Shown here in pieces: positions 15,106-49,800 of a DNA stretch of 64,000 nt. Source of the DNA: Mesostigma viride. Its lineage: Eukaryota > Streptophyta > Mesostigmatophyceae > Mesostigmatales > Mesostigmataceae. The stretch covers positions 1 through 64,000 of the forward strand of contig RPFO01001639.1 of assembly GCA_009746045.1 (NCBI GenBank). Direction: 5' to 3'. The translations under genes and the position numbers were made by a program. Under the pieces are notes generated by a model. That model was not told where the DNA came from and ran no database searches. It worked only from the letters and a program-made list of their open reading frames with translations. Position 1 is the stretch's first letter; each line of letters opens with the position of its first letter.

Positions 15106-18100
15106 GTGAGTCCTGCTTTTGACCATGGTTGGCTCGCAATGCCGGAGACCTCCGCGGGATCGGCGTCGAGCTCTCGGCAAAAAATCAAGGCAGAGTATTT
15201 AAAGGAACACAATGTGGAAAGGACGCTGGCAGTTGCTATTGCCGACGTAATCTCTCGGCAAGAAATATCGTGGAACCCGTACTTTGCCATTGCCGAATCT
15301 GTTACCTTGTTAAGCGGACATGCCGCACCGGACGACATCTTCAAGCGGAGCAATGACGAGCTATTTCAAGCATGGCTTGATGCAGGCATCGAGGTTGCCC
15401 ACCGGCGCACATTCCTCTGCACCCTTTCAGGTTCGGCACACGCCTGGGGTCTCCCACATCTCCTCGTCGCCATCGACCCACGTGGCATCGAGCTTCTCTG
15501 GCAACTTCTAAGCAGCGCGCCCAGTGCATTTTTCCCGCCCGCAAGGAAGCGGACCGCGCTCTTCCCCCCCAAGAAGCTTCGTTCTGGCCAAATTATCGGT
15601 GCCATCGAAGCGAGGCTGCTTCCCTCACTATCTTCCGACAGCCATGCCTTGTTCTGGAGACCTGATGGCCCGCCCGAGCATGCCCCCACCCAGTTCCCAG
15701 CCAGCCTGTCCACCGGCTGTGAAGCCGTACTCTACGGGCCCGACCTGGACGATGCGCTGGACCGATTCCTCGACATGGTCCTTGATGACACGCTTAAGAT
15801 AGCCGGCCGAAAGCTGACAGCACGCTCCGCAGTGAGACATGATGAGGACGACCAAGCCCAAGGGCTAAGCCTGGTGTTGGGCGTGGAGCTGGAAGGGGGG
15901 TACACCTCCCGGAGCGACCTCACGTCGGGCGAACACGAGTTTTGGAGTCTGGATCAGATCTGTGAGCAACCGCTACGCTTTCAGGGTGAGCATGAATCGG
16001 TGTATAAGAGAGACGTGTTGTTGGAGACTGGAACTCCTCTTTGATGGCGCTGGGTTGCCCACCCCTGCTCCCCCACCCCTGCTTGCCCACCCCTGCTTGC
16101 CCACCCCTGCTCCCCCACCCCTGCTTGCCCACCCCTGCTCGCCCACCCCTGCTCGCCTACCCCTGCTCCCCAACCCCTGCTCCCCCACCCCTCTTGCCCA
16201 CCCCTGCTCGCCCACCCCTGCTCGCCCACCCCTGCTTGCCCACCCTGCGTGCCCACCCCTGCTCGCCCACCCCTGCTTGCCCACCCCTGCTTGCCCACCC
16301 CTGCTTGCCGACCCCTGCTCGCCCACCCCTGCTCGCCCTAGAAAGGCAAATACAGCGCCTTATAACAGGGGTTGCACAACAGGGGTCGCCTTGCCAAGTG
16401 CTTGCCCACCCCTGCTGTGCTCACAGGGGCAGTTATTTGCTCCGTTTGGCGATAATTATGTTAGGGCCCATGGACCCACGTGGTCGCCCTGCCCTGTCAT
16501 TGGCTCATGGGAAAAGGTCTGTCGTGTATTTCCTCTTTACCTGATTCTCCTTTCCAGACGCATCTCCTTGTCTTCATTCCTCACCAGAGGCACCTTCGCA
16601 CCTTTGTTCACTACTTGGGCCCCTGGTTGCCTCCAATTCGAAACCACTCGTACATGCATCACGGCCAGCTGCCCTGCGACTCGCCACAGTCGGCCACCGC
16701 CACGCCCGTTTGCACACGATTCTGGCGCTACGCACCCCATGGGGCACCAGCCAGCATGACCATGGCAGCCGGCACAGCAATCCCTTCCACTCTAGCTATG
16801 CTCCAGGGACTGCTAGGGGCCTGCCCGGGTTCCCCTCTCGAGGCTTCCCATCAAGTAGCCTTGGTGGAGCGTGGGGGGATGGAGCCCAAAGGGGCCCGGG
16901 TGGGGGGGATGTATTGCCATGGGATATCGCCACATCAGCATACCTGTCGCTGCAGGGGCGGCGCTTTGTGCGGGCATCCAAACGGTACACGTTCCATTTC
17001 GTGCGCCGAGGGGGCACGGTGGAGAAACAGGCGGGTCAGCTGGCGGGTCAGCTGGAGCGTGCAGTGACGTTTGCCAGCCTGCCCTTTGAGGCGCTCTACC
17101 GCGGCGTGTTCCTCGACGCCGGAAGTGCCAAGCGCTACGTGGCGCTCTTTGGTGAGGGCAAGCGGTTATGCTGGCGCACTTTGGTGAGAAGCAATTGTTG
17201 AGTTCATGGAGCGCTGGTTGCTAGACTAAAATGGGGAGCATCCTGAAGGCATGGTGGGCCTTGGAGTGTGTGTTTTTTTTACAATTACCCCCCAAAACTC
17301 CTGCCTTCAATGGTGCCACTATACCGCTTTGCATACAGCCAGCCAGGCCTAATGCCAGAAAGCAAATGAGGCTTTGCGGTTTGTCCCTATTGTCATGCAT
17401 GTGGTGCAACCAGTTGTTGACCCCTGACGTTGCAGGTAGAGGCAAGGCCAGGGCCGAAACCTTGCCTCTGCGCAGAAACGTATAAGCACCATGCCAGATG
17501 CGCCGGAGGATTGCTCGGAGCCGACCGAGTTGAACTTGCAAGCTGCTTTTATGGGGCAGCGAGCCTACAAGGGGAATCATTCCCCTTCATTGTTACCTTC
17601 TCTCCTGCCCCCTCCCCCCTTTCCCCCTCCCCTCCCCCCATTCTCCCTCCCCCACACACATTTTCCCTCCCTTCCCCGGCCCCTTTTCCCCCCCCCCCCC
17701 CCCATTTTCCATTCGTATCTCCCGTCGTCACTCTGGTTCTGTTCCCCCTTGTTCAAATGGCCTCCGCCTTGTGCCCTTTGTCCTGTTCCACGGACCTTAC
17801 TCCGCCGCCTGCCATTTGTCCTACGTTGGTCGTTAACCCTGCCCAACTCTGCCCCGCCTGATCGTTGCCTCCCTGCGCTGCTTGCGGATGCCCCCTCCCC
17901 AGGCAACGCGCTGACAACCCTGTCATCCGCAGCCCTCGAGCCGGCCCTTTCCGTGATGCGGCAGCAGCTAGTGGAGGCGTGGACCAGTGGCAGTCGAGGG
18001 CACGGGGCGGGCATGGCTGACGCGACCACGGACGCCCGCGGGGTGCCAGGTGGCAGTAACGCTGGTGGTGGTGCGGAGCAAGGTTCCGAGCAGGGCCGTG

Positions 18101-21032
18101 TGGCGGACCAGGACAGGTTCACGAGCTGCCCTCCTCGCCATCATCCTCAGCCGGACCATGAGACATTGCTGCTGTCGACCGCACCGTCCCTCCTGGCCCT
18201 GCTCCTGCTCACAGCAGCGGCCGACCCGTATCGGGGCCGGTGGAGGCCGTGGGCACTGGGGGCCAGCGGCAGGCAGCGGTGGGCACGGCAGGAGCCGCCT
18301 GTGGGAACCGGGGGCGCCCCGAGCGTGCCAGCGGTGGCGCCACCAGGGGCCAGCGTCGGGGATCCGCCCGCTGGCGTAGCTGCATCCCTTGCGCCGCGTG
18401 ATGGTTCAGCTCGGGGAAGAATCACTCCCGCAGCAGATGGGCACGTGCCGGGGAAGGGCGCGGTTCCAAGCCCTGCCCTGGATGCAGGGAGAGATCCGGG
18501 AAGCACGTCCGCAGAGAGCACGAACGACCAGGGTCCCAACGAGGGAGCCGGGGATGGCCCAACAACCAAGGATAGTGGCACCGCGGATGGCAGTGCTAGT
18601 GGCACAGCGAGGGGGGGGGCGGATGGGTCGGTGCCCGGGGCCCCTGGGAATGCTGCCCAGGGTCCCACGGACCCCGCCGCTGGAGGACCATCCCAGGATA
18701 CGTTGGCGCAGGGGGGGGCGGATGGTAATGGGAACGGCCAAGGTTTGCAAGTGGTGAAAATTGAGGGGGGCAAGCCGGCGGCTGTAAGCACTGCCGGTAC
18801 CACGGGCACCACTGTGGGTTTGCCTGCGGGAGGACCGTCCCCTGCTGCGCCTGTTGTTTCCCCTGCCGAGCCCACAACGAAAAACACAGCAAAAGCATCG
18901 CGGGGTAAGACCAGCAAGATCGTTGCAGGCGACAGCCTAGCGTCACCCCGCCGTGGAAAGGCCGCCAAGGAATCGTTAGAGGGGTTGCCCGCAATGGAAC
19001 ACGAGGGCGCGGCGGAGGAGCAACGCATGTTGCCAGAGGAGGCGGGCGGGATCGCTGCCGTGCTGCGATTGGTCCACGGGGGCGGGGCCGTGTCCCTGTG
19101 GGTGGCTGAAGAGTGCGGTGTGCTTGCGGAAGTGATGGTCCATGTGGGTGTGCTGGCACAGGCAGCCGGTGGGCCTTATACTGGCGACTTTGTGGACATG
19201 GTCAGCGGTTTTGTGCCTCGTAACAGGGGAATGGGGGCGCAGGCGCACAGCTTTGTGCATGGGGATGGTGAGGGGGCCAGGAAGGTCCGTTGGGGTAAAC
19301 AAGCAAATAATGGAAGTAGGGGACATGCTGGCACTTTTAAAGGGGGAGATGGAGGTGTTCTTGATAGTGCAGAGGATGGTATTAGCAGCAGCAAGTTGGT
19401 GACCCCCGTTGGGGAGGGCGGCGGTGCAGAGCCCCGCCGAAAAGCGGATCATGGCCTGGCACGGCCTTTCATCACGGTGAGCCATGGGGATGAGCTGGCC
19501 CCAGGGGGGAGCGGGTGGAAGCATTACAACGGCGACGCCCTGCGCATGCTCCTGGTGGCCAGCCACCACTACGCGGAGCTGCGACGCGCACGGCTGCCGT
19601 CTCTACTGCGGGACCCCGCGGTTCTCTCCCCCCTGCACGTGGACGACCTGAACCTGCCAGGGTGTGCAGGCTCCCCGTGGGAGGCGGCGAGCGAGCGAGC
19701 GGGCGTCCAGGGGGTGACCGGTGGCGGGAGGGTGCCTCAGGTCGCTGGGTTCGGCTCACGGGATCATGACCCGGATTCCGTGTTCATGCCAGCAAGAATG
19801 GGCTCGCTGGATTCAGTCTGTTGGCCAAAGCACGGTGTGGCATGGCATGCGTTGAGCTACTACCTGGCGCGCCTGGAGCGTGCATCATCTCCGTTTGTCC
19901 TGTTGGAAGCGGGGGGTGAGGCCGTGGGGGCGGATGCAGAGGCATGGGCCGCACGGGAGCTGCCGCCGCTTCTGCTGCCGACCGACGCAAGTCTGTCAGG
20001 TATTCTTAGAAGACCCATGAATAGGATTATGTTGACTGGTGTTCTTAGAAGACCCATGAATAGGATTATGGTGACTGGTGTTCTTAGAAGACCCATGAAT
20101 AGGATTATGGTGACTGGTGTTCTTAGAAGACCCATGAATAGGATTATGGTGACTGGTGTTCTTAGAAGACCCATGAATAGGATTATGGTGACTGGTGTTC
20201 TTATTAGAACGCTCCTCCTGCCGACAAGGCAAGCCTGTCAAGTGTCAGTTATTCGAGTAACGACCCTATGCATGCTTATTCTGCATTCTGGCTAATTTTC
20301 ATTAGACCGAGCATGGTAGGCACTCTGTGCACTTAGCCTGCATCCGCATCCTTGGTGGCAGTCTCACTGGTCAGTTGGTCATGCTTGTCTGCTGTACTCC
20401 AAGGCTTCTGCTTGCTTTCTCCTGCTTGACAGCTCCTGACCGCGCCTTCTAGTTTGCTCCCGCTGGGTTGCCAGTGGTTGATTGTTCCTGGTCAGTTGCC
20501 CCTGCTTGTTGCGCGTCGCTGACCGCGCCTGATAGGTTGCTCCCGCTGGGCTGCGTTGGTTGACAAGGCCGGTGACCCGAACCCTAAACCCTAGACCCTA
20601 AGCCCTGAACCCTGAACCCTGAACCCTAAACCTGCTGTGCTTGGTTGCCCTCGGTTGGCTGCTCCCTAGTCAGCATGGCGGTACGAGCTGGCAGATGCCC
20701 CCCTTCCCCACAGGCAGCCATGTGCTGGATGCGACAACTACTGTGGATGCCCAGGGTCGCTTTGTGTTGGTGGGCTGTTTCCTAACAACGTCAATTCAGG
20801 GTTGTAATGCGATTGCGACTTTGGGGTGAGGTTTGGCACAGCTTTGTTCATTGCTTCCCGCATAGCTCCTGTGATCGCGCTTCTGCAATACACGACGGCT
20901 GGTCTAGCAGAGATGGGGCACCTGCAGATGTTAATGCAGCAATCCGCACAGGCCAGAAATCTGGGGTGGTTCCGAGGTGGAATCGAGCGCGGCCGGCTCT
21001 ACCGTGTTGCATCGTGGGGGAGGAGTGCATGA
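15106..21032 (+). CDS. Large spliced gene, possibly enolase-4-like with DPY-30/RIIa-like start
   Basis: Exons deduced from frame and splice phase: 15106-15985, 16558-17151, 17903-19999, about 20714 onward, and a last one ending near 21032; donors GTGAGC, GTGAGG and GTATTC, acceptors CCAG and CACAG. The phases of the first three junctions agree. Residues about 29-72 (YLKEHNVERTLAVAIADV and WNPYFAIAES) resemble the DPY-30/RIIa dimerisation-type helix pair that also opens the flagellar enolase-like protein ENO4. The predicted C-terminus has FRGGIERGRLYR, like the enolase GG..RGER segment. Between them lie long Gly/Pro/Ala-rich stretches. The enolase link is weak and inferred; 17491-17902, although open, is intron by splice phase. 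The last junction is not settled. Confidence 0.5.
16054..16339. repeat. 15-bp minisatellite in intron 1
   Basis: About 19 tandem units of CCCACCCCTGCTYGC with small length changes. It lies between the donor at 15985 and the acceptor at 16557, so the open frames across it are not expected to be translated. Confidence 0.85.
17164..17194 (+). repeat. Copy of exon 2 end plus donor site inside intron 2
   Basis: CTGGCGCACTTTGGTGAG (17171-17188) repeats the real exon end and donor GTGGCGCTCTTTGGTGAG (17139-17156), 32 nt downstream. The second GT would be a usable alternative donor. Confidence 0.7.
17580..17720 (+). repeat. C/T-rich tract in intron 2
   Basis: An almost pure CCCTCC/CCCCTTT stretch ending in a run of C. 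It lies upstream of the acceptor at 17902 and is too far to be its own pyrimidine tract. Confidence 0.6.
20000..20204 (+). repeat. 39-bp tandem repeat starting at the intron 3 donor
   Basis: Five units. The first begins with the donor itself (GGTATTCTTAGAAG); the others begin GGTGTTCTTAGAAG and continue with CCCATGAATAGGATTATG. Each unit thus carries a new GT start like the donor. Confidence 0.9.
20212..20254 (+). repeat. Copy of exon 3 end inside intron 3
   Basis: CTGCCGACAAGGCAAGCCTG with TCAG TTATTC (20218-20254) repeats the exon 3 end and donor CTGCCGACCGACGCAAGTCT with GTCAG GTATTC (19975-20005), just past the 39-bp array. Confidence 0.6.
20576..20632 (-). repeat. Interstitial telomere-like CCCTAAA repeats
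   Basis: About eight degenerate units (CCCTAAA, CCCTAGA, CCCTAAG, CCCTGAA) lie in an intron of the preceding gene, in the orientation opposite to those at 6272. Confidence 0.8.
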
Positions 21033-21341
21033 TCTGGTGAGAGGTGGCGTGGGATAGAGCTTAATAATAAACTCTTAGTTCTGTATGGGTACAGAGCTGA
21101 AGTAAACAACTAGGTGAGCATTGGGCATGGGCCAGCAAAATCTTCTTGGCTTGGGTACACGTGCTAATTAATTCATTCATTAAGTAATATAAAGATCAGG
21201 GCCCCGTTGGTCCCCAACCGCCGGAAGTGGTCATCGACTGTTGAATGCGTGTGCCATGCCTGGAACGTGCCTGGAATGCGTGTGCCATGTGGCATTTTAT
21301 GACTCGGCCACGTCGGCCCATCCCGTCCCGCAGCGTTACGG

Positions 21342-25959: not shown

Positions 25960-28562
25960 AATAGCCTTCCGGGTGTCCCCTTGGATTAAAGACCTCAACG
26001 TCTGCACATATAGTGGGATCAGTGGCGCGTTGCAGACACATTTCAGTTCCAAACCTTGCATTCAAGGCGCCAAGTACAACTGTAGTACAAGGTGGGGAAC
26101 CGGTGCCGACTGGAGTACCTGTCGCCTGTCGGCCCTGGACGCCCGGGCGGACGTCGACGAGCTGGACAAGGGTGCTCCCAACGCCGCCATTTTTGCGGGC
26201 TTCGCAGCCCGTGCCCCGTTGCTGGCGGCCCGGCACCTGCCAGTCATGCCCCGCCGCCGCCCCGGCCCGCTCTACCGCCAGGACCCCAAGGTCTTGGCCG
26301 CCCGGCACCGCCTCAAGCGTAACCGGGACCCGCTGCAGAAACCGGTGCTCAAGGCCGCCCTCGTGGAGGCCTACGAGCACGCTCAGGACGCAGAGGCGGC
26401 CCAGTGCATCGCAGATGCCAAGGCCTGCCAAGCTCGCAACCAGGGCAAGGACATGTGGTACCACCTCGACCGGCTCGGCGGCCGGCGGCAGCGCACCCCG
26501 GTGGAGCACACGGGGGACGGCACGGCGCCGGTACGCCTTGACCGCTGGTTGGCCCACAATGTTTCCTTGACAGGTGGGGCTCGCGCCCCCCCCCCCGCCG
26601 CTTCACCCCGAGACGGCCGCCCGTCTTGGGGTCGCCGGACCCCCGCCGGCGCCCCCCTCCTCGGCCGCGGACTACCAAGTCCCCGCCTTGCAGGAGGGCT
26701 GCCTTGCCACCTACGACGTCGTCCACCCCTTCACTTTGAAGGAATTGGACGGCGCCCTTGCTCGCCTGCGGTACGACTGTCGCGGCGGTCGGTGCCGACC
26801 GCCTTTCGGCTGAGCTGCTGAAGACCCCTGACCCGGCGGTTATTAGGGATCTTCTGCTGGCGTTCTGCAACCGTGTCCTGCTTTCTGACGAGCCTCCGCC
26901 TGCTGAGTGGCAGACGTCCATCCGTGTCATGCTGTACAAGAAGGGCTCTGCTGCTGACCCCGGTAACTACCGGGGTGTCTGCCTCCAGAGCGCCGCGCTG
27001 AAGGTCTTCATGCGCATGATGCTGCACAGGCTCCGCGCCGCGCTGGACCCACACCTGGGTGAGTCTCAGATGGGTTTCCGTCGTGGTCGTAACACTGTCA
27101 TGGCTGTGTTTGTCACGCGCCGGTTGATGGAGGAGGTGCGTCGCCTTTGCCCTGACAGTTTGCCGCTGGTCTTCATTTTTGTTGACTATATCAAGGCCTT
27201 TGACACGGTCCTCTGGGAGGCTCTTTGGGCCATCCTAGCTTTGGATCGGGTGCCACCAGCGTTTATTGCTGCCATTCATCGACTGTATGAGGGCTCACAG
27301 GCAGTAGTGCGGACTGCGGAAGGCACCACCCCACCATTCCCCCTTCACCACGGGGTGTGGCAAGGTTGTGTCCTGTCCCCATATACCGCTGTTCATTATT
27401 GTCGTGGATCACGTCATGCGCCCGGCACGTTCGCGCTTTACTGCTCTTAAGGGGTTCGAGCCAGGCTTGGACATCCTTAACGAGCGCGAGCACGGCAGGG
27501 TTAGCCCTGGCTACCGCCTGGCCGACCTGATTTATGCGGATGACACCACCCTCATCGCGCGCCCCGAGCACATTCAGACCTGGCTGGACTGTCTGGGCCC
27601 GGAGGCGAGGGCGGTGGGGTTGGAGATTAGTGTCAAAACTGAGGCGATGGTGATTGCATGGGGCCTCCAGTACACCGCCGCTGCCGTGCCTGCTCGACGG
27701 GACTTAGGTCCCGTTCCACGATCGCTTCAAACTGTTGGGGAGTTGGCTCCCTGACACCGCAGACGATGTGGACACCCGCATCGGCCTGGCCTGGGCCAGG
27801 CTCCGTTCGCTCAACACCTACTGGCGCTCCAAGGGCCTGGGCGAGCACCGCAAGCGCCTGCTCTTCAAGGTCCTCGTCCTCACGGTGCTCACGTATGGCG
27901 CCGAGGCGTGGACAATCACACCCACACTGGCAGCTAAGCTCGACGGCACGGTTGACAGGATGCTCCGACAGGTCCTGAATGTAGGGTTTTCCCAGCGCCC
28001 GTCATTAGAGTCTTTGTATCAGGGTATGCCTCGTATTTCGGACGAGATTAGGCAGCGTAGGATAGCATTTGTAGGACACCTTGCTCGCACCAGCCAGGTC
28101 GACACCGCCCTTGGTCTGGCAGGCCCCCAGCGGCTTGGCCAGCCAGGGCGGCATATTCTGTCAGACCTGGCCTGGCCCCAAGGGGATGCATTCCTAAAAG
28201 GGTAGGGAAACATGTCACGAACTACATCCAGATGTTGCTGGACGACCTAGTACGCGCATGGTCCCAGCCCAGTTTAAACACCGCATCCACTCTCTCTCCC
28301 TTCTTTGGACTGCCATGCAGAACAAGACGCGGTGGCAGAAGATTGTCAAGGCTCACACGCCAGCCCCTGTGGGCAAGCCACCTCCCCCCAAGAGGAGGAG
28401 GCGTTTTGATGAGTAGTGTACTTAGGATTTTCTAGACTAGATAGCTTAGAGTTAGGTTAGTTCGAGTACGCGGCTCCCTCCACTCCACCCATCCATCAAG
28501 GAATATGTGCTACATTATCTCCCAACGGAGGCATGTTATAATTTAATTTAATTTAATTTTAA
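25960..28562 (+). mobile_element. LINE (non-LTR retrotransposon), 5'-truncated and frameshifted
   Basis: The reverse transcriptase can be followed through four frame changes: an N-terminal part (about 26000-26570), the fingers/palm with KKGSAADPGNYRGV and MGFRRGRNTV (26940-27100), FVDYIKAFDTVLWEALW (27175), HHGVWQGCVLSP (27350), the catalytic IYADDTTLIA (about 27530) and a thumb with YGAEAW and GHLAR (27890-28080). The C-terminal basic tail PPPPKRRRRFDE ends near 28416. A 3' UTR ends CTCCCAACGGAGG and a (TTTAA)n tail at 28539-28562. No endonuclease domain is visible, so it is 5'-truncated. The frame changes are mostly +1, unlike those of the last gene. Confidence 0.85.
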
Positions 28563-28587
28563 GGCGGGGATTTTGTGACATGCAGGG

Positions 28588-32795: not shown

Positions 32796-32811
32796 GTTGA
32801 AGTTACAACAG

Positions 32812-33900: not shown

Positions 33901-36900
33901 ATGGGGAATCCGACTGGCGGCACCCCTTGCATTCTCGATTACCAGGCGGCCTACCACGCCCTGGATTTTGAAAACCGGAGCCTTCGACGCGAGTTAGCCA
34001 TCCTTCAACAGCATCTGGCGGAGGGTAGCGAGAACAGCCCGACGACGTTGGGCCAAGGCCCAACCTCACAGCGCCCACGTCGGAGGCTTGAGCGATGGGA
34101 GCCTGACCTCGAACCGTACCGGATGCCGCCGCCGTCCGACGGCGTCTCGCCGTTCAACCTGGAGCGTGGGTGCGCTCAGCTGGGGACCTGGGAATGGAAC
34201 CCGCAGACCGACGAGATTATGTTCGACCAGAGCTGGGCAAAGTGGCTCGGTTACGAGCAGCGTCAACTAGATGTCCGCGAGGCCGACGCCGCGTGGCAGC
34301 GGGTAAGCTGATGCTAGTATCCCCTCCGTGGTCCGGCACCTACCGGCAGTGAGCTGTGAATCTGAATTGTCGCAAATACCTGGCCTTTGCAAGCTGCTAT
34401 TACCGTGAGACCATGCGGGTGGAGGATAGCAAGTGGTCCTCTATTACCCAAGTGCAAAGGAAAGGGTCAAGCGCTAGCAGGGCACCCATCGATGCTGAAC
34501 AAAGGGTCTGGGACCCAACGGGTGGCAGGGATAGGCTGACGATCAAGCAGCGTGCGTCAGGCGCCCTTGCTCCACTGTCAAACTACGGCGATAAGTGGAT
34601 CGCCAGCCCACTCAGCATCCCAGCTGCCATGACGGCTATGGTCATCTCGTTTATCGCCCAGGGCTGAAGTAGCGCTTGCATTGGTGCAGTTGAGCGTGGT
34701 GGCACCTGACTGTTTTTTTATATGCCAAACAGTCAGTTTTTTGGTGCCAGCAAACCGTGCTGGCACCAATTCCTCTGCACTTCTGTTGCACACTGATGCT
34801 GCAGATTACCTCTGTCATATGCGTTGATATGGACCTCTAAGCAGAGCCCTAAACACAATCCCCTCCTACTCGCCCTGCTGATTTACTCCCTTGCTGCCGC
34901 TCTCTCTGACACCGACTTGGTTTTTTGTTGGCGATCATTCGCCCCACTACGGCTGTGCATGTGGGCTGTATCCTCGTGGGCGACAGCTGACCCACCCCGA
35001 CGACCTGGTTGAACTGAGCGCCAAGCTGGAGGAGCACCTGGCAGGGAGGTCCCCTGTGTTCAGTGCGGAGCATCGCATGGCGCACAGGGACGGTCACTGG
35101 GTGTGGGTGTTCACGGCAGGTCGCGTCGTGGAGTGGGATGCGCAGGTGCGTGCTGGCGATGGCTCCCTCCATCAGGTGCACCACACCTAAAATTCATGCA
35201 TGCTGTCTCGGGTGGATTGGGATGTGCAGGTATGAGGCAATATGGTGGCAATATGGTTGCAGTACGACTGCAACATGAGCGCACTATCATTCCTTCACAC
35301 ATTACCACCTGTGAAACGCTTGCCCTTGTAGCGCGCAAATTTGAGGGGGTTCCCATGCATGCAATGATTCCTTCACACGCCACCCACCGTAGAGAGTTTC
35401 CCTTCTTATGATGCGCAAGTTGCCAGGCGGTTGGTTTACCAGCCATTCTCTCTTCGACCCGCGTCCCGTGGCAGATCTACGGACCTCCCATCCGTCACGC
35501 ACGGAGGTTGCCTATCCCTCCTGTCGCGGTGCCCTATGCTTGCACCCGCTCACCCCTCGTGTGCAAGCGACTGTTGCCAACTTCCACCGGTCCCCGCACC
35601 CTGGCAGGGCAAGCCGCGGCGGGTCTCAGGCACCCAGCAGAACATGGGCGCGCGCAAGAAGTGGGAAGAAGAGCTGCTGGCGGCGTTGGCTGCGTCGCAA
35701 AGCGCCGACCGAGCCAAGAGCGCCTTCCTCGCCAAGTGAGTGCCTGACACTATTTCGTTATCAATAGGATCTCCTTGATCCATAGGACTTGTCTTTAAAA
35801 TAGTTCCAATCATCCATATGTGTACAGCCGGCCCAAGGGCACCTTTCTTGCCAAGTGAGTGCCAGGATTTTTTATGAAATAAAAAAGTAAATTGCTTCAA
35901 TCATCAAGCGCATTGGAGACAGGGGGGGGGGGGGGGGGGGGGGGTTGACAGGTCATCTGCGTCTCTTCTTAAGCAACTTACCATCTCCTATAGTGTCATG
36001 TATACTGTAGCGTTTTTTTTTTTTTTTTTTTTTTTTCTCTCTTGTGGCAACAGCCTCATAGCAAGTCGCATGAGGTCCGCACACCCTCTTTCTCAGTCTT
36101 CACACTTCCATGTATTCACTATACCTTGTACGATCCACGTTATCCTTCATGCTCCCTCCTCCCAACAGCATGTCGCACGAGATCCGCACGCCCATGGCAG
36201 GCATCCTGGGTGCGGGCGCGCTCCTCCTGGAAACCCCCCTGGGGTGCGACCAGCGCGAGCTGGCGACCATGATGGTGGACAGCACACAGCTTCTGCTGTC
36301 GATCGTCAACGACATCCTCGACCTGAGCAAGATCGAGGAAGGTTTTCTTAAGGTGGAGACTGTCCCCACTGACGTCAACGAGGTGTTGGCGCACGTGCAG
36401 GAGCTGTTTGGTCCCAAGGCGCGAGAGAAGGGTGTCGCGTTACAGGTGAGCACGCCAAAAGTTAATACCAAAAAAGTTTTGGGCTCGTGAGTCAAACATT
36501 GGGCTTGTAAGTCAAGCATTGGGATCATAATAACTAACCAAAAGCAAATGGGTGGCGTGAAGTGCCGGCAAAGAATGAGCTTAGCAGGGGAGCTTGAGGC
36601 CAAGAGCCATTTCGCATTTATTGCAGCTTTGCATTGCACAGGCGGTCTTTCCGTGACGTTGTTTGCATTTGTGGTTCTGGTCTCCCTCATCGCGTTTGAA
36701 CAACAGGTACAATGGGCAACCGAAGAGGTTAAACAAACTAGCCAATTCCTTCTAATCATGATCAGTTGCATGAGCGTTTCCGTCCCTAAGCATCTGGGGC
36801 ACTCGCTGATGTGTGCTCTCCACCCTGCAGGTGGAGCCCCTGGCCCAGGAGCATGGCCAGTCCTGGATCATGGCGGACCCGACGCGGCTGCGCCAGATCC

Positions 36901-39240
36901 TCCTTAACCTGTGAGTGGGCGGGATGTGGTGCCCCCTTCAGACACAATGGCATTTTCCTCTTCCTTTTTTTCAAGCACACGTTTGGAGGCGCTGCCCATA
37001 AAGCGTTGGCATGGAACGCTTGCCTTTGCCACCACATACCTTGGTGCTGTGTGTTCTGATGTCGGGTATACTTTGTCATTCGGTTCATCCTGGTGTTGGG
37101 TATGATGATGACTCACGCAGCGTGGGCAACGCGGTCAAGTTCACGCACCAAGGGCAGGTGACCATCTCCGCACAGCTGACACCCAGCAGCCACGCATGCG
37201 GTGCCGAGTGGCGGCAACACCACAACGGCAGCAACGGAGCAGGCTGCCTCAGCCCGGTGGAGCAGGCGGCGATGGATGCTGGCGTTTGCCACGACCTGTG
37301 GGACCTGCGCATTTTCGTGGCTGACACGGGCATTGGCATGTCGCCCGACATGGTCGCGCGCGTGTTCGACCGCTTCCAGCAGGCGGAGGGGGGAGCGTTT
37401 GCGCGCACGTACGGGGGTTCGGGTGAGTGTTTTTGTTCATACTGTGTGTGGTTTATCAGGTAAGGTTTTCTCAGAATGGGCGAAAGACCTTTTTAGGGAG
37501 GCACGCAGCAAATTTAAACGAATGGCAGGTTGGATGATCTGTTGTTTTTAAGCGGATCTCTCACTTGCACTGGCTTGTGTGGTTTGCACAGGGTGCATGC
37601 ATGTCTCACGGAATCGGACAGACGCCTCGAATAACCTCTTGCTTCGTTTCTTTGGCTGGCAGGCCTGGGCACAACGACCGGCGATGAGTTATCGGATCTT
37701 AATCATATTTCGGAAATACTTGTATCTGCTTGTATCTGCCACCCATGCAGGCCTGGGCACCACGATCAGCAAAGAGCTGGCCAAGCGCATGGGGGGCGAT
37801 GTGACTGTGGAGTCTGAGCAAGGCAAAGGGAGCACGTTCGCGCTGCGCCTGCCCGTGATACGCGCGCCGGCAACACACAGCGCGCCGCAACGGCCGTCGC
37901 TCGCTGATACGCCCCCAACGGCATCCTCCCCAATACCCTGCACCAACGGGGAGGGCGCGGGCAGGAACTACGGGTTCACCGCCATCCTCGCCGAAGTATG
38001 TTTGTGTGTGATGTGTGGCGGTGGTGGGGGGTTCAACCCTATCTGGTCATGTGGGGGGGGGAACGGCGCAAGTACCTATCTTACAAGCAAAAGGGTTTTT
38101 CATGCGAATGAAATGGATGTCCACGTGCTGAAGCTTCCCTTTGACCACGTGCTCTAGCTGCTGACAGTTAGTGCACAACCTGGCATGGCAGTGGCTGTAC
38201 ATTTGGCACACGCACACCTTGAATTCTGCGTGCAGTTCAAAGGTCTTATGAGCGTGCTATGGTGGTCTGCGCGCCCTTGCCCACCCCAGGACAACCACCT
38301 TAACCGGCGCATCCTGGAGAAGGTGCTGCAGACGGTGGGCATCACGATCATCCCCGCGCCCAACGGACAGATCGTGCTAGACCTTGTCCGAAGCGGCGTC
38401 GACCACCAGCTCATATTTATGGTATGTTGGACTACTGGGCTTGTAGGTATGGTACCTTTTTTGTACCTACTTTTTGCAGCTTCTTTCCGTGGGCTTTGTA
38501 GCGCACAATGCGTACGCGCGATTTTCTACACATGCCCTCTGACACCGCCTGCCGGCGGATCCTTCTCCACATCTCCCGACATGGGCGTCCGATGCATGAA
38601 TAGTTGTTTCTTTTGTCATATAGTGAGACAATCGATACCGAGTTCGTGGCAAGGTGCCCATGTTACTACGATCGTCCTCATCCATAACAGGGCACAACAC
38701 ACGGAATCATCCTGACACTGTTGCCTGTACTCATCCGTCACCATGTTTTCTGCTCAACTCCTGCTTCACCACGAGCAGGACATCCAAATGCCTGTCTGCG
38801 ATGGCGTGACCGCGACCAAGGTGCTGCGCGCGCAGGGCTACCACCGCCCCATCCTCGCGCTTACGGCCAATGTGATGCCAGCGGACCTGGCCAGCTACAT
38901 CGCGGCTGGCATGAATGGGGCGCTGCCCAAGCCCTACACGCGCGCGCAGATATGCGACGAGATCGACCGGCTGATGCTCACCCACGCCGTGGCCGGGGTC
39001 ACAGATGAACTCATGATCGCCAGGGCACTGATGGCGGTGGGGCCACCTAGGGCCGCAGCCAACCCTGTTTTCTTCGCTCGGTCATTCTCGTTTGAGCGAT
39101 CAGGGATGCCCCCAGAGTCCAACCCAGAAAACCCCGACAGGGCCAGGCGTCGCAGCACCGAGGCGTGGGACTCCCGTCTCCCGTGCCCGGCGTTATCCAG
39201 CCTCTGCGACATGGCACCTGCGGCCAGCGTGATAGCATAG
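33901..39240 (+). CDS. PAS-domain hybrid histidine kinase, nine exons, 728 aa
   Basis: Exons with consistent phase: 33901-34302, 34987-35145, 35608-35735, 36169-36445, 36831-36910, 37121-37422, 37751-37995, 38290-38421, 38779-39240. Residues about 80-215 form a PAS/PAC sensor ([30 protein letters not shown]). HisKA follows with the phospho-accepting His233 in SHEIRTP; the ATPase has the N box (VGNAVKF), G1 (DTGIGMS), F box (FDRFQQAEG) and G2 (GGSGLGTT). The receiver starts ILAEDN, has phospho-acceptor Asp576 in MDIQMP and Lys in LPKPYT. No membrane segment is seen, so a soluble sensor of the two-component phosphorelay is inferred; the ligand is unknown. A Met at 33829 would add 24 residues. 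Several junctions cut conserved motifs, and introns 2, 3 and 6 carry exon-edge copies. Confidence 0.92.
34706..34769. other. Two adjacent hairpins in kinase intron 1
   Basis: 34706-34736: CTGACTGTTT pairs with AAACAGTCAG. 34741-34769: TTGGTGCCAGC pairs with GCTGGCACCAA across a 7-nt loop. Both stems are perfect. Confidence 0.7.
35210..35234 (+). repeat. Copy of kinase exon 2 end inside intron 2
   Basis: GTGGATTGGGATGTGCAGGT (35212-35231) repeats GTGGAGTGGGATGCGCAGGT at the true donor (35128-35147), about 84 nt downstream, including a GT in donor position. Confidence 0.8.
35827..35863 (+). repeat. Copy of kinase exon 3 end and donor inside intron 3
   Basis: ACCTTTCTTGCCAAGTGAGT followed by GCC (35841-35863) repeats GCCTTCCTCGCCAAGTGAGT followed by GCC at the true donor. 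An acceptor-like GTGTACAG stands just before it, so it looks like a tiny relic exon. Confidence 0.8.
35922..36036 (+). repeat. Long G and T homopolymers in kinase intron 3
   Basis: 23 G at 35922-35944 and 24 T at 36013-36036. Exact lengths are likely to be uncertain in any assembly. Confidence 0.8.
36047..36085 (+). repeat. Copy of kinase exon 4 start inside intron 3
   Basis: AGCAAGTCGCATGAGGTCCG then CACACCC (36059-36085) repeats AGCATGTCGCACGAGATCCG then CACGCCC at exon 4. It would encode SHEVRTP, a variant of the phospho-accepting motif. Confidence 0.8.
37654..37680 (+). repeat. Copy of kinase exon 7 start and acceptor inside intron 6
   Basis: GGCAGGCCTGGGCACAACGA (37658-37677) repeats TGCAGGCCTGGGCACCACGA at the true acceptor (37746-37765), 88 nt upstream of it. 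Confidence 0.8.
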
Positions 39241-39850
39241 CTCGGGTTGCCCACTTTGAACGGCTAACCTACAATTTTGTGTGGCACCTATTCTTTCCTA
39301 TCCATATTGCTGCGTGTCTTCGAGGGTGATCCGGAGGATTCACCCGGAGTGAGCTGGCAAACCTCTAAATTATTCGGCAAACACATTTTTTCGAACACAT
39401 CCAGCAGCTTCGGCTGTGGATACTGGTCAATTGTTGTTTTAACTTCCTGCTGACACTCGGTCCGTCGATCTTACCAGGCTTTTCTGTGTGTTTCTGAAGA
39501 TGGATATGCCATAGAAGACAGCGGGTATCAAGCCCCCATTGTACATAATTATACCAGTGTCCTGGTGTGCTTATGCTGCATGCATGTGAGCGCACGTCAA
39601 TCAGCCAAATTCCTTGATGATCATGGGTGTTGAGTTACATAGGCTCCGGCTGTCTTGGCATGGGCAGGGAAAACAGCTGGTGCCAGCAGAGGCAACTGGT
39701 CCATTTCTTGTGTTTACTCCTCACACCGCTTATATGATCTGCATGCAATACAAGCTTCAGCCTGCAGCATGCAGACTTCCTATGGTCGTTCATTCGTTCA
39801 TTCGTTCATTCATTCATTCAATCATTCATGTTCCTCCCTCCCTCCCCCCC

Positions 39851-39902
<52 letters not shown>

Positions 39903-40134
39903 CTGACGGAGAAGTTTCAAATACATAAGTGACACTTTTTCAACATGTCGGTGCGGACCTCATTCCGGTCGCGTACGTGTGAGTCGGAATTGAATTGAAC
40001 TCTGAACTTTGAACTCGGTTAGTGTGGGCCTGTGGGGTCGGTGAAATAGTTCCATATATGCTGCATATATTCTTGAATTAAGACAACCGTAGACCAGAAG
40101 GCCGTCATAGTGAAAGTGTGCAATCCCGCGGAAG
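39241..40134. other. Intergenic, with (ATTC)n and a 49-nt C run
   Basis: No gene is seen. A TTCG/TTCA microsatellite lies at 39787-39830, followed by C/T-rich sequence and an unbroken run of C at 39852-39900. The homopolymer length is likely approximate. Confidence 0.6.
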
Positions 40135-40330
40135 GCACGCTAGATAGCTCCCCCTAGGGCAGCGTGCGGCGCGGCCTAGATAGTTAGCATGCTGTTAGAT
40201 AGATGTAGTATATCGCCAATGTAGATAGATTAGACCGGTAGGAATGTTTGCACCCATCCATCCATCCATCGGGGTTAATGCTCCGTGACTCCCCAACGGG
40301 AGCACGAGTCTAATTAATTAATTAATAGTG
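40135..40330 (+). mobile_element. LINE 3' end fragment with (TTAA)n tail
   Basis: ACCGGTAGGAATGTTTGCAC, (CATC)n and CTCCCCAACGGGAGCACGAG followed by (TAAT)n at 40311-40327, almost the same as 30330-30450. Only the 3' UTR is left. Confidence 0.75.
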
Positions 40331-40623
40331 AAAGTTAATGCCAGCCTGGACTGGCGCCCGACCGCCCGTCAGTTAGACGTACTACTAATAAGTATAGACA
40401 ATTTCTGCCATTTTAATTGGACATTGCATGATCCCTTGGACCATGCATTTGTGCGGCAAACGTTTGCATGGGCCTGTACCATGTAAAGCACCCACCAAAA
40501 AGTTGTAAATTGCACCCACATGTGTGCCTGCCCGTAGGGCTGCGCGGAGCTCGACAATCTGTGGCCCACTATCCCGGCAGTGACAGAAGCTTGGGCGCGC
40601 CCGCCCTGGACTCGGTGCATAGA

Positions 40624-40625
40624 AG

Positions 40626-40656
<31 letters not shown>

Positions 40657-40663
40657 GCGGGTC
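40624..40663 (+). repeat. G-rich GGGGT tandem, possible G-quadruplex
   Basis: Repeated GGGT/GGGGT units with several G runs of 3-7, enough for a four-stranded fold on the plus strand. Confidence 0.6.
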
Positions 40664-40868
40664 GATAGGAACCAGTACTCACATGGCGGGGGAGGTTCTG
40701 TGCCTCCTGTAAAAAAGTTTCTCAATTAAAAAATTAATCACCTCTCAGTTTAAAAATATGCACAGCACAGCTTTATACCTCAGGCTGATGACATCCGGTC
40801 ATTCATGAAGCACCTTGACACCCTGGCGAGGTCACGATGTGCACACTACCTTGACCACAAGATGTTCT

Positions 40869-40873
40869 TTACA
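40869..40873 (-). terminator. TGTAA poly(A)-like signal of the RING gene
   Basis: TGTAA on the minus strand, 43 nt past the stop codon of the RING gene. Confidence 0.45.
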
Positions 40874-40915
40874 TAATGCGGACATTATATCCCCCCCCCG
40901 CACACCCAACAGCTT

Positions 40916-43900: not shown

Positions 43901-45795
43901 CGCTACAAAATGCATGCGGAATGTGGGGCAAAAACCAGAACTGTGGGGCAAAATGCGAGCGGATCCCAAGCCCAAGGCCGTCCTAGGACTAGTGGGTGCC
44001 GTTGCCATGTCGATCATTAAAAATAGAAAAAACGTGCAAGCCCCAAACAAGCCCCCCTGGAGGCAACCATGGCAAGGGGAGCCCCCTCAGCAGGATCATA
44101 CCCACGGCACCACATGGCAGGCAGCAGATTGACATGCAACCGATTGCTTGCATCAGACCGCAGACATGCATTCATGCACACATGCACCCGGGCCAAGACG
44201 GGCAGGCACCAGACTGCACACACACGCGCACACGCATGCACGCACACGCCAACGGAGAACTCGGACACAGGGAGGCGGTCAAAGTGCCCCCCCCTTTGAA
44301 CGTTGTGGATGACCGAGGTGTAGGGCGCCTGTGGGCCACAAAGAAAACATCGGCAATGATCCCATCCCACAAGCGATGTGAAACACTGCATCAGCATCAG
44401 CACTCGTACTGAGATATCCCTCCCACCAAGTGGATGATCCTTCGATGTGCGATGGAGGGATCGATAAGCACGTGGATGGCAGGATCAGACAGCAGAACCG
44501 AGTTGCCAATGGAGTGAACAACCGGGCTTGCCAAGGCAGGGTTGGAAAGCGGGGGTAAAAGGGGAAATATTCCACAGAGCACTTTCATTGTAAGGGTAAA
44601 GCGAGGTAGCTCCCATGCCTGTTGAACATCTGCTCGCATGCTGCAGCGACTGAACAGTGCAGGAGCGCAGGTGTAGGCGATGAACGGGCTAAAGAACTCC
44701 AACGCGGCCACACCAAAACGATGTACGATGGCAATTGCACCGTACCGGCTGAAATGCTCCGTTTGCAACAAAATGTGCCACAGATTAGCTAGCAAGACAA
44801 ATATTAGGTGGAAAAGTTCAGCAAGTCCTGGTACACCTACCCCCAATACATTCCAGACGTGGCCGTGACAGGCGAACCTAGAAGTAGCTTCATGCCTAGT
44901 TGTCCCAGTGTCCGTCAAGACTGACACCTCAAGTGGACAACTGGTGACAAGGTGATTTCAAGAGAAAGAAAGGGATGCATATGTTGTTAAAAGCCTCCCA
45001 GGCAAACCGTCTCCCTTCCTTACTTTGCAGATTGGGCAGGCGGGAGGGTGGCCGATGCGGGTTTCTGACCATTGCAGCATGCAGGGGAAGCAGAAACGGT
45101 CTGTTTTGGGGCGAAGAAGACACAAGGGACGAGAAACATTGCAAAGATAATCAGTGTGGTAAACATACTTCTGCACACGCTTGAATGCCACGTAAAACCA
45201 TTTACCTGTCAGAACCAGTCCGCATGGATTGTGATTGGATCATTCGCTTGACAGCCAGCTGAGTAATTACAAACTGGTGAAAGGCATGCTAGGCTTCACG
45301 AGTGCGTGATGGAATGCTTACCTTATGTATAGACCACACTCGTACAGTTTTGCATATAACCCCGTGATAACTATTCTAACCCGTGCTGGGTGTCGCGTGG
45401 ATGCGGCAGGGGCTATGGTTGCGCACAATCGGGGAAACCGTCATGAAAGGAACGACAAAATTGTGATCGCAATCACTTTATAATCGACCAGCCCAAAACC
45501 ACTGTCCATCACATGCAAGGAAGGGAAGCAGTCTGAATTTCCATAAACTTGCTTTCGGTGACATCATCAGCATGATATCACGTCAACAGCCATGCTCGCA
45601 ACTGCCCTTATGTAGGAGCGGCACCAGAAGATAACTACATGGAAGAGAGAAAACAACATATACTATTCGTATGTTACTAGCGGGGAAGGAGCATGCAAAT
45701 GTACGCTTACGGAAGCATTGATCGAGGTAGGCCTCCATCTCCACGCGCTCCAAGCATATTGGGCATGCGTCCGGGGATACTCCTCCCTTACCCAT
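40916..45795 (-). CDS. RING-type E3 ubiquitin ligase (TOPORS-like), seven exons, 254 aa
   Basis: Minus-strand exons with matching phase: 45711-45795, 45024-45100, 44246-44328, 43278-43408, 42885-42994, 41544-41605, 40916-41132 (765 nt, 254 aa plus stop). A C3HC4 RING fills residues 11-53: Cys11, Cys14, Cys27, His29, Cys32, Cys35, Cys50, Cys53 (CPIC, CFHRFCFPC, CPIC); His29 is formed by the first splice. After it come YTSVIHNVQ, RLAYTGG, WLTIELQALML and VAAVQPF-type helices in the order of plant/animal TOPORS-like ligases. It should transfer ubiquitin (perhaps SUMO) to unknown nuclear targets. The start is MGKGG at 45795. It diverges from ORC2, and intron 5 carries a LINE fragment. The open frame 44397-44927 is intron. 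Confidence 0.8.
41663..42010 (-). mobile_element. LINE 3' fragment inserted in a RING-gene intron
   Basis: A (TTAA)n tail at 41663-41679 leads into CCTCCGTGGGGAGGATATGT and CATTCTAGGTGACAACCTGC, matching the minus-strand LINE ends at 6425 and 28924. It lies between exons 42885-42994 and 41544-41605, in the same direction as the gene, with its tail 58 nt from the acceptor. Confidence 0.65.
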
Positions 45796-46596
45796 GATCA
45801 CCTAAGAAACCGCCAACAATCCCAATTGTGGTGGCGCATCCATCAAAGTGCGCGTCATGAGGCTAACGCGTTGCACGCAGCAAACGGCACACAGTGCCAT
45901 CTCCAGCGTCACGCCGGCAAAATTCTCAGAAACAAGGTATTTAATTAGCGGCCGAGAACAAACATCGTCTACTTGATTACTGCTGAGAGGTAAGCGGAAT
46001 TATAAATTAAGTATCTTAGAGCGAGCGTAAAAAATGGACGTCCTTCCCAAAAGCGAGAACCCCGTAACTCGAAGCCAAATGTTAATGACAACGAAAATAT
46101 TGGTAATAATGTGGGCTTTAGTTCAATCGAATCATTCAAGGCTTTTCCTAGGCATGGCGTTCCGGTAATTATTATACCAGGGGCAATATTACCAAGACGT
46201 GCTGTACATGTATTGCTCAAATGAGCACAGATGAGGAGCTGATTAATTAACTGCTGCGGTTCCATGGCGGTTCTGTCATATTTCAGCTCACATTTCTACC
46301 CGTAAGCGTGCATCTGTGTCGCCCAACCTCGTCCACAGACGTCCACTGCTGGCATCCTAATGCCTCGCAGATGCACAGATCCTTCGTGGCTCGTGCTGGA
46401 CTTGCTAGTTCGAGGATGGTACGGACATTGTATTTTTCTGACGGAAGAGCGCTTTACATTCGCAAGATTTTGTGATCCGTACTTCGAGGATTGTAGTTCG
46501 TACTCAGTTTATACTTTACAAGGAGGTGACGGCCGTTAGCCACGGTAAACCTTAAGGTTACAGTAGTGTGCTGGTGAACATCAGGGTAAAAGTTTG

Positions 46597-46658
46597 TTCC
46601 CGCCAAACGAAGCTTTGGCGCCAAGTTTGCTTGACCCGTGCGCGCGCGTTCGCCAAAA
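46597..46658. promoter_or_regulatory. Cluster of three E2F-like sites before ORC2
   Basis: TTCCCGCCAAA (46597-46607), TTTGGCGCCAA (46614-46624) and TTCGCCAAAA (46649-46658) match the E2F/DP consensus (TTTSSCGC, either strand), 224-285 nt before the ORC2 start. Replication-licensing genes are standard E2F targets in plants and animals. A perfect 16-bp palindrome, ATGCCCGCGCGGGCAT, follows at 46664-46679. The same region must also serve the RING gene transcribed the other way. Confidence 0.6.
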
Positions 46659-46881
46659 TACCCATGCCCGCGCGGGCATATTTGTGACCATGCCTTCACG
46701 CCTCCTTGACGCATTTCCATTCACGCATTTGGGCTCTCCATTCACGCATTTGCAAGGGTGTAATATATGTTGGCTAATCGCGTGCATAAGTATGCAAACA
46801 CCTACTTAGTTTTGTCTTCCAAGTATTCTATGTCCACGGTAAACCTCTCGACAGCCCGCTTGCTAATGGGAGCTGCTTAGA

Positions 46882-49800
46882 ATGGGGAAGCTAAGCACAG
46901 TTTTCAAGGCGCAAAAGCCCTCCAGAAGTTCGGTGAAACGCGCAGCCAATGCTATAAACAAAGACATCATATGTGTTCCTGCTTTCGATGTTAGAAAGCC
47001 CACCGCTCAGCCGGTTTCTGAACCTGAAAGGCGCTCCGCCGGGGCGCGGCAGTCTACCGAGCCAGTAGGTTTTTGTTCATATAACTGTCGCCCTTGTAAT
47101 CCGCCTAATGCCTTGCTCAGATCATTCCCATAATTCCCAAGTTGCGCGCCCACTTCTCGGGAAAGAAGCGGTAACTTCGATTGAATAGAACCTTCACTCG
47201 TTCTGCGTTTGCTGGGGACTCCATACCGTGTCATCCTGACGACAGCAGTCTGAGAATGCGACAAGCGCTAAGAAGAGGCGTGTTGGACGCCCGCTAGGCC
47301 GCAAGGCGCAGGAAACTAACCCGGAAGCTTCGCAGGAGACAAAACGTCAAGACAGGCTCGCCGAGGCCGCCACCCACCTGGACGCACCGGAAGGTGAAGC
47401 CGGATGCCCATTGGCTGAAGCGACCGATGCCGACGATGCCCAGGACGCGGACGGTGCCACCCAGCAGAGTGGGCCCCAGCAGGGAGCCGGCGGTGGCAGA
47501 CCGAGGCGCCATGCACAGAAGCATTTCAAGCTTGAGGACTTGGATCTACTCAGCGATGATGTCAGTGCGGTGGCGTGCTGTGGAGAAGAAATGACTTTCT
47601 GTCGAAATGCTGTTACTCTAGCCGCTTGTCTGTCATTGATCCGTAAAGTGGCGAGGTTGGTGTCATAGTGTGCACATCCATCGTGCCATGCTGCATGTCA
47701 GGCTTGCTGTAGCTGCATGTCTTAGTGGACTCCTACTGTAAACAGTGCCGAAGGGGAAAGCTGGCGTATGACTCCTTGGGTGTGTTGCATGCTAGCGTAC
47801 CCTGCATGCATGCCCCGCCCATGCACCACAACCACCCCCCATGCTTCATGGCATCCCCTAGCGCTTGATAGGCCTTGTCTGACCAGCTGTTAGATAGCCC
47901 ATTGCTAGTCAGGAGGCAGATTGACTCGGCCACAACATTCTTATGGGGATGGCTTGTGACACTGTGGGTAGTCAAGTCAGGCCTCAAGCCCGATTCAGGT
48001 TGGTAGCCAGTGCTGGGTTCAATCAGCGCCAAGTTCAGGTTGCTCCCGATTCGGGTTGCTACTCACGGGTATGGTGAAGTGTTCCTTGTCAGATGCGGTG
48101 TCTCATGACCCGGGGTACGCCGCTTGCCTGCTCCCCCCCCCCCCCCCACGCCCTTCCAGGTGGTGAAACAGGAGATGGAGGGAGCGGAGGCGCGCGTTGC
48201 CAGCATCGCCACTGTGTGCGACCTGACATCCGCCACGCAGCTGGATGCCGCGTTTGACATGTGGTACTCGGAGATCAGGTACGGCAAGGCACTAGAAAGA
48301 CCTATTCGTGGCCAAGGGTACTACAGACGCTTATTCGTGGTACTCGGAGATCAGGTTTGATAGGGGTTCACAGAATGGTATGGCTCTACAGAAGCACTTA
48401 GTAGCATGATAGGGCGGCCGAGGTTCCTGTTCTGGTACTCGGAGACCAGGTTTGATTGCCCCCACCCCACCCCACCCCACCCGCCGTCTTCCCACCCTGC
48501 CCCCCCCCCCTTTTGTGAGGGCCGGTGCCTTTTGTTTGCGTTCAGAGGTTGTCGCACATTCTACAACATGCGTACGCAATTGTGCAAGTGTGCAAGTGTG
48601 CAAGTGTGCAAGTGTGCAAGTGTGCAAGTGTGCAAGTGTGCAAGTGTGCAAGTGTGCAAGTGTGCAAGTGTGCAAGTGTGCAAGTGTGCAAGTGTGCAAA
48701 TGTGCAAGTGTGCAAATGTGCAAATGTGCAAATGTGCAAATGTGCAAATGTGCAAATGTTCAAGTGTGCAAGTGTGCAAATGTGCCACTGTGCCATTGTG
48801 CAAGTGTGCAAATGTGCCACTGTGCCATTGTGCAAGTGTGCAAATGATGCAAGTATGCAAATGAGTCCATTGTCAGGGGAAGAGCTCCCTCCGCAGCCGC
48901 CGGTGTATGTCCATGCACTTGCAAATGTGTATTGTGCGACCCACGACTCCATGGATCGCTTTTTGGGTGGGATACGCGCGACCATGTCAGCAAGGGGCCA
49001 CGGCCCAAGAGATGCTATCAATGAGGACGTGGCAGCAGCCAAGGTTTACACCCTGCCAGCCATCCTGTATGATTGGCGTTTAGGAAGTTACTGGCACAGT
49101 CTAAACCCTAAAACTCGACATCCTTTCCTTGCCCTCTCGCCCATGAGCTTCCCTTCATTCTTGATGTGGGTACCGACTTGTTTGCCGACGGTTCAGTCAC
49201 GGGCGCATGAATGTCTTGGCCACTAGTCGAGCGCTACCTGCGTATGCCTTGGTTGCATGCCTGTTTGCCGACAAAACATTTATGTTTTTGTTGCATGCGT
49301 GTCCCTATCAACTTGCCTCCCTTTCTATCTATCCTTTGCAGGGCCGGCTTCAACCTCCTGTTTGCGGGTCGCGGCTCCAAGAAAGCTCTCCTGGACAAGT
49401 TTGCAGCCGATAGGCTGCGGCGGGAGGCGGCGGTCGCAGTGGTGCATGGGTACCACCCGTCGACGACTCTCAAGAGTGTGCGTGCTAGGGCAGAAAGGGA
49501 ACAGAGCAGATATGATGAAGGGGTAGCACACAACGAGTAGCTATCCACAATGCTCAACTGTTTGCGTGCAAGGGAAAAAGGGAGTGGACCAGACAGAAGC
49601 GTGATGACGAGCCATCCGCCCCTCTCAGGAGGCTGAGTGCTGGGCAGGCACCGGTGGGATGTAGCAGGGCAGGTACAACTATGACACTACTCTACTTATA
49701 ATATAATTCTACTGCTGATGCGGCTCGATGGCATGCTTACGTTGATGCAGCGCGATGGCATGCTTACGTTGATGCAGCGCAATGGCATGCTCGGGTTGAT

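Follow-up and report, generated by a model that had tools for sequence, protein, structure and literature searches.

The stretch of DNA analysed here, which we call the window, comprises 64,000 nucleotides (nt) of the unicellular streptophyte alga Mesostigma viride (contig RPFO01001639.1, positions 1 to 64,000). Its plus strand carries a hybrid histidine kinase gene and an ORC2 gene in which exon ends, together with the adjoining splice site, recur as degenerate copies inside the neighbouring intron. The kinase gene reads as one open frame through nine exons, with the Pfam domains PAS_3, HisKA, HATPase_c and Response_reg, and the ORC2 gene, taken without its uncertain first exon, matches Pfam PF04084 (E 6.1e-52). 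Counted over these and further genes of the genome, about one in four examined exon ends has a decaying copy of itself, with its splice site, nearby in the intron.

Exon-edge copies in the kinase and ORC2 genes

The two genes, the exon edges that were copied and the copies themselves are as follows.

33901..39241, plus strand: hybrid histidine kinase gene
After 34302, 35145, 35735, 36445, 36910, 37422, 37995 and 38421, plus strand: kinase donor sites
34987, 35608, 36169, 36831, 37121, 37751, 38290 and 38779, plus strand: kinase exon starts
35128..35145, plus strand: end of kinase exon 2, parent of a copy
35212..35229, plus strand: copy of the exon 2 end, located 66 nt into intron 2 with GT after it (16/18 identical)
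35709..35735, plus strand: end of kinase exon 3, parent of a copy
35828..35854, plus strand: copy of the exon 3 end, located 92 nt into intron 3 with GTGAGTGCC after it (21/27)
36062..36086, plus strand: copy of the exon 4 start, located 107 nt upstream of the true acceptor with AG before it (21/25)
36169..36193, plus strand: start of kinase exon 4, parent of a copy
37663..37688, plus strand: copy of the exon 7 start, located 88 nt upstream of the true acceptor with AG before it (21/26)
37751..37776, plus strand: start of kinase exon 7, parent of a copy
47246..52090, plus strand: ORC2 gene without its uncertain first exon
48160-48278, 49342-49477, 50605-50863, 51186-51455 and 51876-52090, plus strand: ORC2 exons used
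48261..48278, plus strand: end of ORC2 exon 3, parent of two copies
48337..48354, plus strand: first ORC2 copy in intron 3 (18/18), followed by GTTTGAT
48433..48449, plus strand: second ORC2 copy in intron 3 (16/17), followed by GTTTGAT, shifted by 171 nt

When every 30-nt kinase exon edge was slid without gaps (+1/-1) along all eight kinase introns, the own-edge scores were 14 and 15 for the donors of introns 2 and 3, and 17 and 16 for the acceptors of introns 3 and 6. The remaining 12 own edges scored at most 9, and all 112 mismatched pairs of edge and intron at most 10. The limits of these four copies coincide exactly with the exon border, with GT after or AG before them. For ORC2, a 22-nt pattern searched through 440 Mb with up to three mismatches has three matches listed, which are the exon end and its two copies; comparison of an ORC2 exon with a phage collection gave no match.

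Frequency and extent of junction copies

For the main count we took 39 introns, hence 78 edges, from the window kinase, four kinase paralogs, ORC2 and AAA-ATPase genes, and counted an edge as carrying a copy at a score of at least 12. The paralogs had been collected by protein search and the AAA-ATPase loci by Pfam search, neither being selected for copies. Junctions were placed by tblastn for the kinases and by eye on continuous translations for the ORC2 and AAA genes, and two paralogs (L037 and L038) were read in part. The exon's own edge was found copied directly into the adjoining intron at 22 of the 78 edges, compared with 0/78 for the reverse complement, 1/78 for the reversed edge and 4/1012 for foreign introns at the same threshold. 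By set, the counts were 4/16 for the window kinase, 14/42 for its four paralogs, 1/8 for ORC2 and 3/12 for the AAA-ATPase genes.

An initial annotation of the window had held that such matches exceed chance, to be checked by comparing own with foreign exon edges, and the count bears it out on both points. Its cases had been picked by eye, and two of its eight sites proved weak; still, chance, low complexity or a picked sample is a most improbable explanation given these controls and given the 17/54 edges found at the loci chosen regardless of copies (paralogs and AAA genes). Its suggestion of a genome-wide process holds insofar as copies do occur in genes on other contigs, over a scope of 39 introns. 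A hand-trained gene finder, applied to the window and loci L002-L034, gave 100 introns in which, at a score of 12, donors matched their own intron in 9/84 cases versus 3/483 for foreign pairs, and acceptors in 5/85 versus 1/490. The strong matches in this set lie in AAA-ATPase genes at L016, L026 and L025, which from their translations we take to be CDC48-like, proteasome-subunit-like and FtsH-like, respectively.

We analysed 22 copies in detail, namely those of 21 edges plus the second ORC2 copy; the acceptor of intron 7 in paralog L036 (13/13, lying 14 nt off the junction) is among the 22 edges but outside these 22 copies. Their exon part, with lengths read from the alignments, measures 15-39 nt (median 25.5; 36 nt in the proteasome-subunit copy), and the shift between edge and copy 55-281 nt (median 118). 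Among the kinase copies, 16/18 extend to within 1 nt of the junction. The splice dinucleotide, GT or AG, is retained in 18/22 copies, in keeping with what the initial annotation had said of them.

Genome-wide searches were made in a 439.9-Mb Mesostigma viride assembly of 2243 contigs; the published description of the genome (PMC6947507) reports 2363 scaffolds totalling 441,847,188 bp and introns averaging 1141.87 bp. Allowing up to three mismatches, patterns of the kinase H-box, kinase exon 7, proteasome-subunit and ORC2 edges had, in this order, at least 15, 10, 2 and 3 matches, and the backward-pattern controls for all four had none. Six of the 30 matches listed are intronic copies, none of them more than about 215 nt away from its own exon. 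The other 24 comprise 16 on known kinase exons (9 with the H-box pattern, 7 with the exon 7 pattern), two inside paralog genes on contig C2178, the exon ends of the proteasome-subunit and ORC2 genes, and four H-box matches without an assigned gene, with 2-3 mismatches (contigs C987, C1567, C1713 and C1912:3932265).

These searches bear on introners, mobile-element families of which some make 3-9 bp target duplications (PMC9860276). An element of this type whose target-site duplication repeats the exon end would also place direct repeats near intron borders, but we give this origin hardly any credence, as foreign introns seldom match exon edges, the proteasome-subunit and ORC2 patterns have no further matches among those listed across 440 Mb, and repeats of 15-39 nt lying 55-281 nt apart are unlike target duplications of the reported size.

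Six of the eight sites listed in the initial annotation, four in the kinase and two in ORC2, are solid, whereas those at 17171 and 20218, assigned to a third, 'enolase-like' gene, are weak.

17172..17183, plus strand: weak candidate copy (11/12, score 10), gene identity unconfirmed
19999..20203, plus strand: 39-bp minisatellite, 5.3 copies, beginning at the donor proposed in the initial annotation
20210-20225, plus strand: weak exon-end copy after the 39-bp minisatellite (14/16 ungapped, score 12)

A score of 10, as at 17171, is reached by 19/483 mismatched donor pairs. No Pfam family (E<=0.01) was found for two long open reading frames of this gene, and another piece of it, searched against PDB sequences, gave nothing better than E 0.1; the name is therefore unsupported, and so is the claim of three unrelated genes, the solid sites lying in two. 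Within the proposed intron 3 of the same gene we also noted an internal telomere-like repeat of the CCCTAAA type (20575-20632).

Origin of the copies

Paralog L038 has a 55-bp unit in 10.1 copies (93% match) that starts some 20 nt within exon 6 and continues past the donor. Every full unit of this live array holds the exon end and GT, and 7/10 units, counted in the sequence, hold GTGAGT. Intron 3 of L036 presents an older, two-unit case, with an exon part 34/39 (87%) identical to its own exon and an 80-nt spacer that aligns almost end to end with gaps (z 10.6) and is more decayed than the exon part. Further degenerate edge copies, resembling the outcome of repeated duplication rounds, lie in L036 intron 3 (offsets 213 and 528) and intron 6 (1345 and 1460). 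A duplicated unit comprising exon end and intron start is present in the L038 array and in L036 introns 3 and 7. Spacer homology reaches p<0.05 in 6/22 copies; across the copies the median z is 1.1, and two cases account for the higher mean of 2.1. Besides L036 intron 3, the six include the donors of L036 intron 7 and of window kinase intron 3, where a decayed 17-nt segment is common to the spacers on either side (p 0.027), and the acceptors of L035 introns 6 and 8.

These introns thus contain direct local copies beside their own exon, a live array and a few decayed full units, and we infer that the remaining copies arose likewise by tandem duplication. Identity is 0.85 over the 8 nt of exon adjoining the junction, a value inflated by picking matches with scores of at least 12, and going into the intron it is 0.89 at the splice dinucleotide, followed by 0.64, 0.48 and 0.37. 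That old copies seem to stop at the junction is in part expected, since the exon part decays on one side and the intron part on both.

We consider it likely that local tandem duplication spanning the splice junction leaves the decaying junction copies in Mesostigma viride introns. Introns would lengthen by frequent local tandem duplication, through minisatellite-like slippage or unequal exchange, and a unit spanning the junction would leave an exon end with GT, or AG with an exon start, in the intron, at a distance of 55-281 nt from the site it duplicates. Splicing would presumably continue at the outer site, so that the protein is unchanged. The copy would then decay, one-sidedly in its exon part, where the true exon is constrained, and on both sides in its intron part. 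Duplications with more than about 40 nt of exon would probably be removed by selection, because longer exon context would make the inner site resemble a real exon end. This limit appears to be set at birth or soon after, as it is already sharp in the two cases that still show their entire unit, with an exon part of 39 nt in L036 intron 3 and about 20 nt in L038. Local direct duplication at splice junctions that lengthens introns is also what the initial annotation had proposed, and this part of its proposal stands.

Duplication is not confined to junctions. In the same genes, 143/727 ordinary intron windows (short-period repeats masked) have a direct copy, 140 of them within 300 nt, with 9/727 for reversed windows. 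As intron windows are copied too, and nearly always locally, local tandem duplication appears to be general here, with junctions caught in it. The rate varies with masking, from 273/900 unmasked (reversed 107/900) to 62/683 with all arrays masked, and 80/110 one-way intron-window matches fall in four array introns. A first impression that edges lie far above introns was dropped, masking having removed the intron arrays, and the comparison was redone.

We compared these rates with a simulation, run under a few self-chosen settings, in which tandem duplication was neutral and uniform and acted alongside substitutions, deletions and small indels. The simulated ratio of edges to one-way intron windows was 1.5-2, and windows lying 30-60 nt into the exon were matched 0.55-0.76 times as often as those at 0-30 nt. 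Earlier settings with two-way windows gave chance-corrected ratios of 0.2-1.2, but 3.3 and 4.0 in two near-chance settings.

Several observations count against local duplication as a sufficient account. Outside array introns, 19/70 edges (counted by hand from the main count) versus 30/560 intron windows carry a copy, a ratio of about 5 and above that of the neutral simulation; the ORC2 and AAA genes alone give 4/20 edges versus 6/123 windows, two of these 20 edges belonging to an array intron omitted from the windows. Exon windows 30-60 nt from the junction are copied in 1/78 cases versus 22/78 at 0-30 nt. When exon parts are capped at 40 nt, simulated edges are matched less often, with an edge/window ratio of 0.4-0.7, so that a junction excess remains, from targeting or from retention. 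The same edges are copied across paralogs (p = 0.002). Spacer homology has p>=0.05 in 16/22 copies, and some copies that are young by their exon part have an unrelated intron side (ORC2, 18/18; L035 intron 8 donor, 15/15; L035 intron 3 acceptor, 23/24). In addition, one clear exception to junction anchoring occurs on the reverse strand of L016 (870-892 / 1005-1027), where a segment of a CDC48-like exon, 48 nt away from the junction, was copied into the intron (21/23), short of the junction itself.

Random breakpoints would often yield exon parts longer than 15-39 nt. These data suggest that the neutral uniform model is insufficient, and that there is either purging of long exon parts, targeting of junctions or retention of copies. 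The junction excess and the short exon limit are only suggestive, because the windows are non-independent and the sample comes mostly from one gene family, with certain edges matched repeatedly.

The unrelated intron flanks could instead point to templated insertion during end joining, by which short pieces from nearby, exon ends included, would be copied into intron breaks. Pieces of 15-39 nt, many without a recognisable intron flank, would fit such an origin, which we nevertheless regard as unlikely in view of the lack of inverted copies (0/78), the full tandem units in L038 and L036, and the absence of an excess of exon-interior pieces at 30-60 nt.

A more serious contender, though still clearly the less probable one, is that duplication targets junctions, or that copies are retained because, as decoys or competitors of the true site, they modulate splicing. 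Short junction-centred segments, each made up of the splice site and 15-39 nt of exon, would be copied repeatedly into the intron and some of them kept by selection as putative decoys; if so, roughly a quarter of intron edges would carry a mimic of themselves. The edge excess over intron windows, the restricted length of the exon parts and the recurrence of the same edges in several paralogs all speak for it, but intron-internal duplications are common as well, which goes against this reading, and the sample is small. As regards retention, 4/13 inner donors outscore the 75th percentile of real donors in sequence strength, but the preservation of GT or AG is, by our own estimate, close to the expectation from decay alone. 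Use of the inner site would moreover be nearly always unproductive, leading to a frameshift or stop in 21/22 copies, the sole exception being without its GT; nothing in these sequences points to in-frame isoforms. The idea that copies serve as microexons, raised by an AG before the kinase intron 3 copy, was also dropped, since the other inspected copies have no such AG and the frame is mostly lost.

Of the nine donor copies in kinase genes, seven resemble the exon of their own paralog most, with one tie and one nearer another paralog; these seven probably arose after the paralogs split, which counts against the reading by targeting or retention, and an origin from paralogs was rejected for most donor copies on the same grounds. 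The eight acceptor copies comprise one nearest its own exon, four ties and three nearer another paralog. The four of 17 kinase copies that lie nearer another paralog's exon may be read as fossils of an older exon, as in the L035 intron 8 acceptor copy, which matches its own exon at 19/26 positions and two paralogs' exons at 22 and 23/26. The copy of the exon 4 start at 36062..36086 has a counterpart in L035 with non-exonic flanks in common. This shared intron 3 copy is identical at 38/46 positions in a best-of-many alignment, compared with 60% at fourfold sites between the two genes and 33.5% at random, which favours retention and hints at constraint, short of proof.

In most of the five paralogs the same edges at introns 2, 3 and 6 carry copies, while introns 1, 4 and 5 yielded none. 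The introns present occupy identical positions in all five, and L038 lacks intron 4, its exons 4 and 5 being fused; the initial annotation's view that the duplications shift intron borders finds no support here.

Elsewhere in the window, an AAGGAC hexanucleotide array of about 742 copies spans nearly 4.4 kb (59069-63499), and one 46-bp unit makes up two arrays (56564-57231, 14.6 copies; 58444-59060, 13.7 copies) adjoining minus-strand open frames; an open frame at about 57740 contains CGGCCGTTGGCG, a piece of this unit. Reverse-transcriptase-like frames lie at 26742-28205, where the piece 26742-27135 matches RVT_1 with E 7.4e-6 and so falls short of the curated cut-off, and an 863-residue minus-strand frame with leucine-rich repeats lies at 10643-13234.

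Significance and comparison with known systems

Junction-crossing duplication is known case by case, and in the genes examined here it is frequent, at 22/78 edges. In the literature, as far as titles and abstract openings go and with limited coverage of subscription papers, we found no report of widespread junction copies in Mesostigma or elsewhere. Such a frequency allows the phenomenon to be studied as a process, one that would explain part of intron lengthening. The copies supply a ready-made series of potentially competing splice sites, alike in sequence and set in different exon context. Should the exon part prove limited to about 40 nt throughout the genome, this ceiling would gauge the length of exon that the splicing machinery requires for distinguishing a true site from its copy. 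Mesostigma viride may thus serve as a natural experiment in intron growth and splice-site choice.

The following comparisons rest on the accessible portions of the cited sources. In the potato RdRp gene, a tandem duplication across an intron-exon boundary made a new intron (PMC4974935). As in Mesostigma, a segment across one splice junction was duplicated in tandem and an exon piece came to lie inside an intron, and the contrast in GC content between exon and intron, together with enhancers, was invoked for the splicing signals. The potato case concerns one locus and a new intron, whereas in Mesostigma many junctions in several genes are involved, an existing intron is lengthened and the outer site is presumably kept.

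In the AGGT model of Rogers (as cited in PMC4974935 and PMC8469720), duplication of a wholly exonic segment gives rise to a new intron. The likeness is that a second exon piece bearing AG/GT is brought beside the first, but the Mesostigma units contain intron sequence and cross an existing junction, so the direct kinship with this model proposed in the initial annotation is not supported. Novel intron positions in Drosophila arose by tandem duplication in rare cases (5/31; PMC2891723), which likewise makes duplication around splice sites a source of intron change; there the positions are new, and decayed junction copies within existing introns are not described in the portion of that source available. 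Fungal stwintrons have inverted repeats (PMC8469720), which differ from the direct copies at the Mesostigma edges examined, where none was inverted. Minisatellite arrays are also found in genes: the 55-bp array that represents the live stage in L038 is a minisatellite, with the difference that its unit holds a splice junction.

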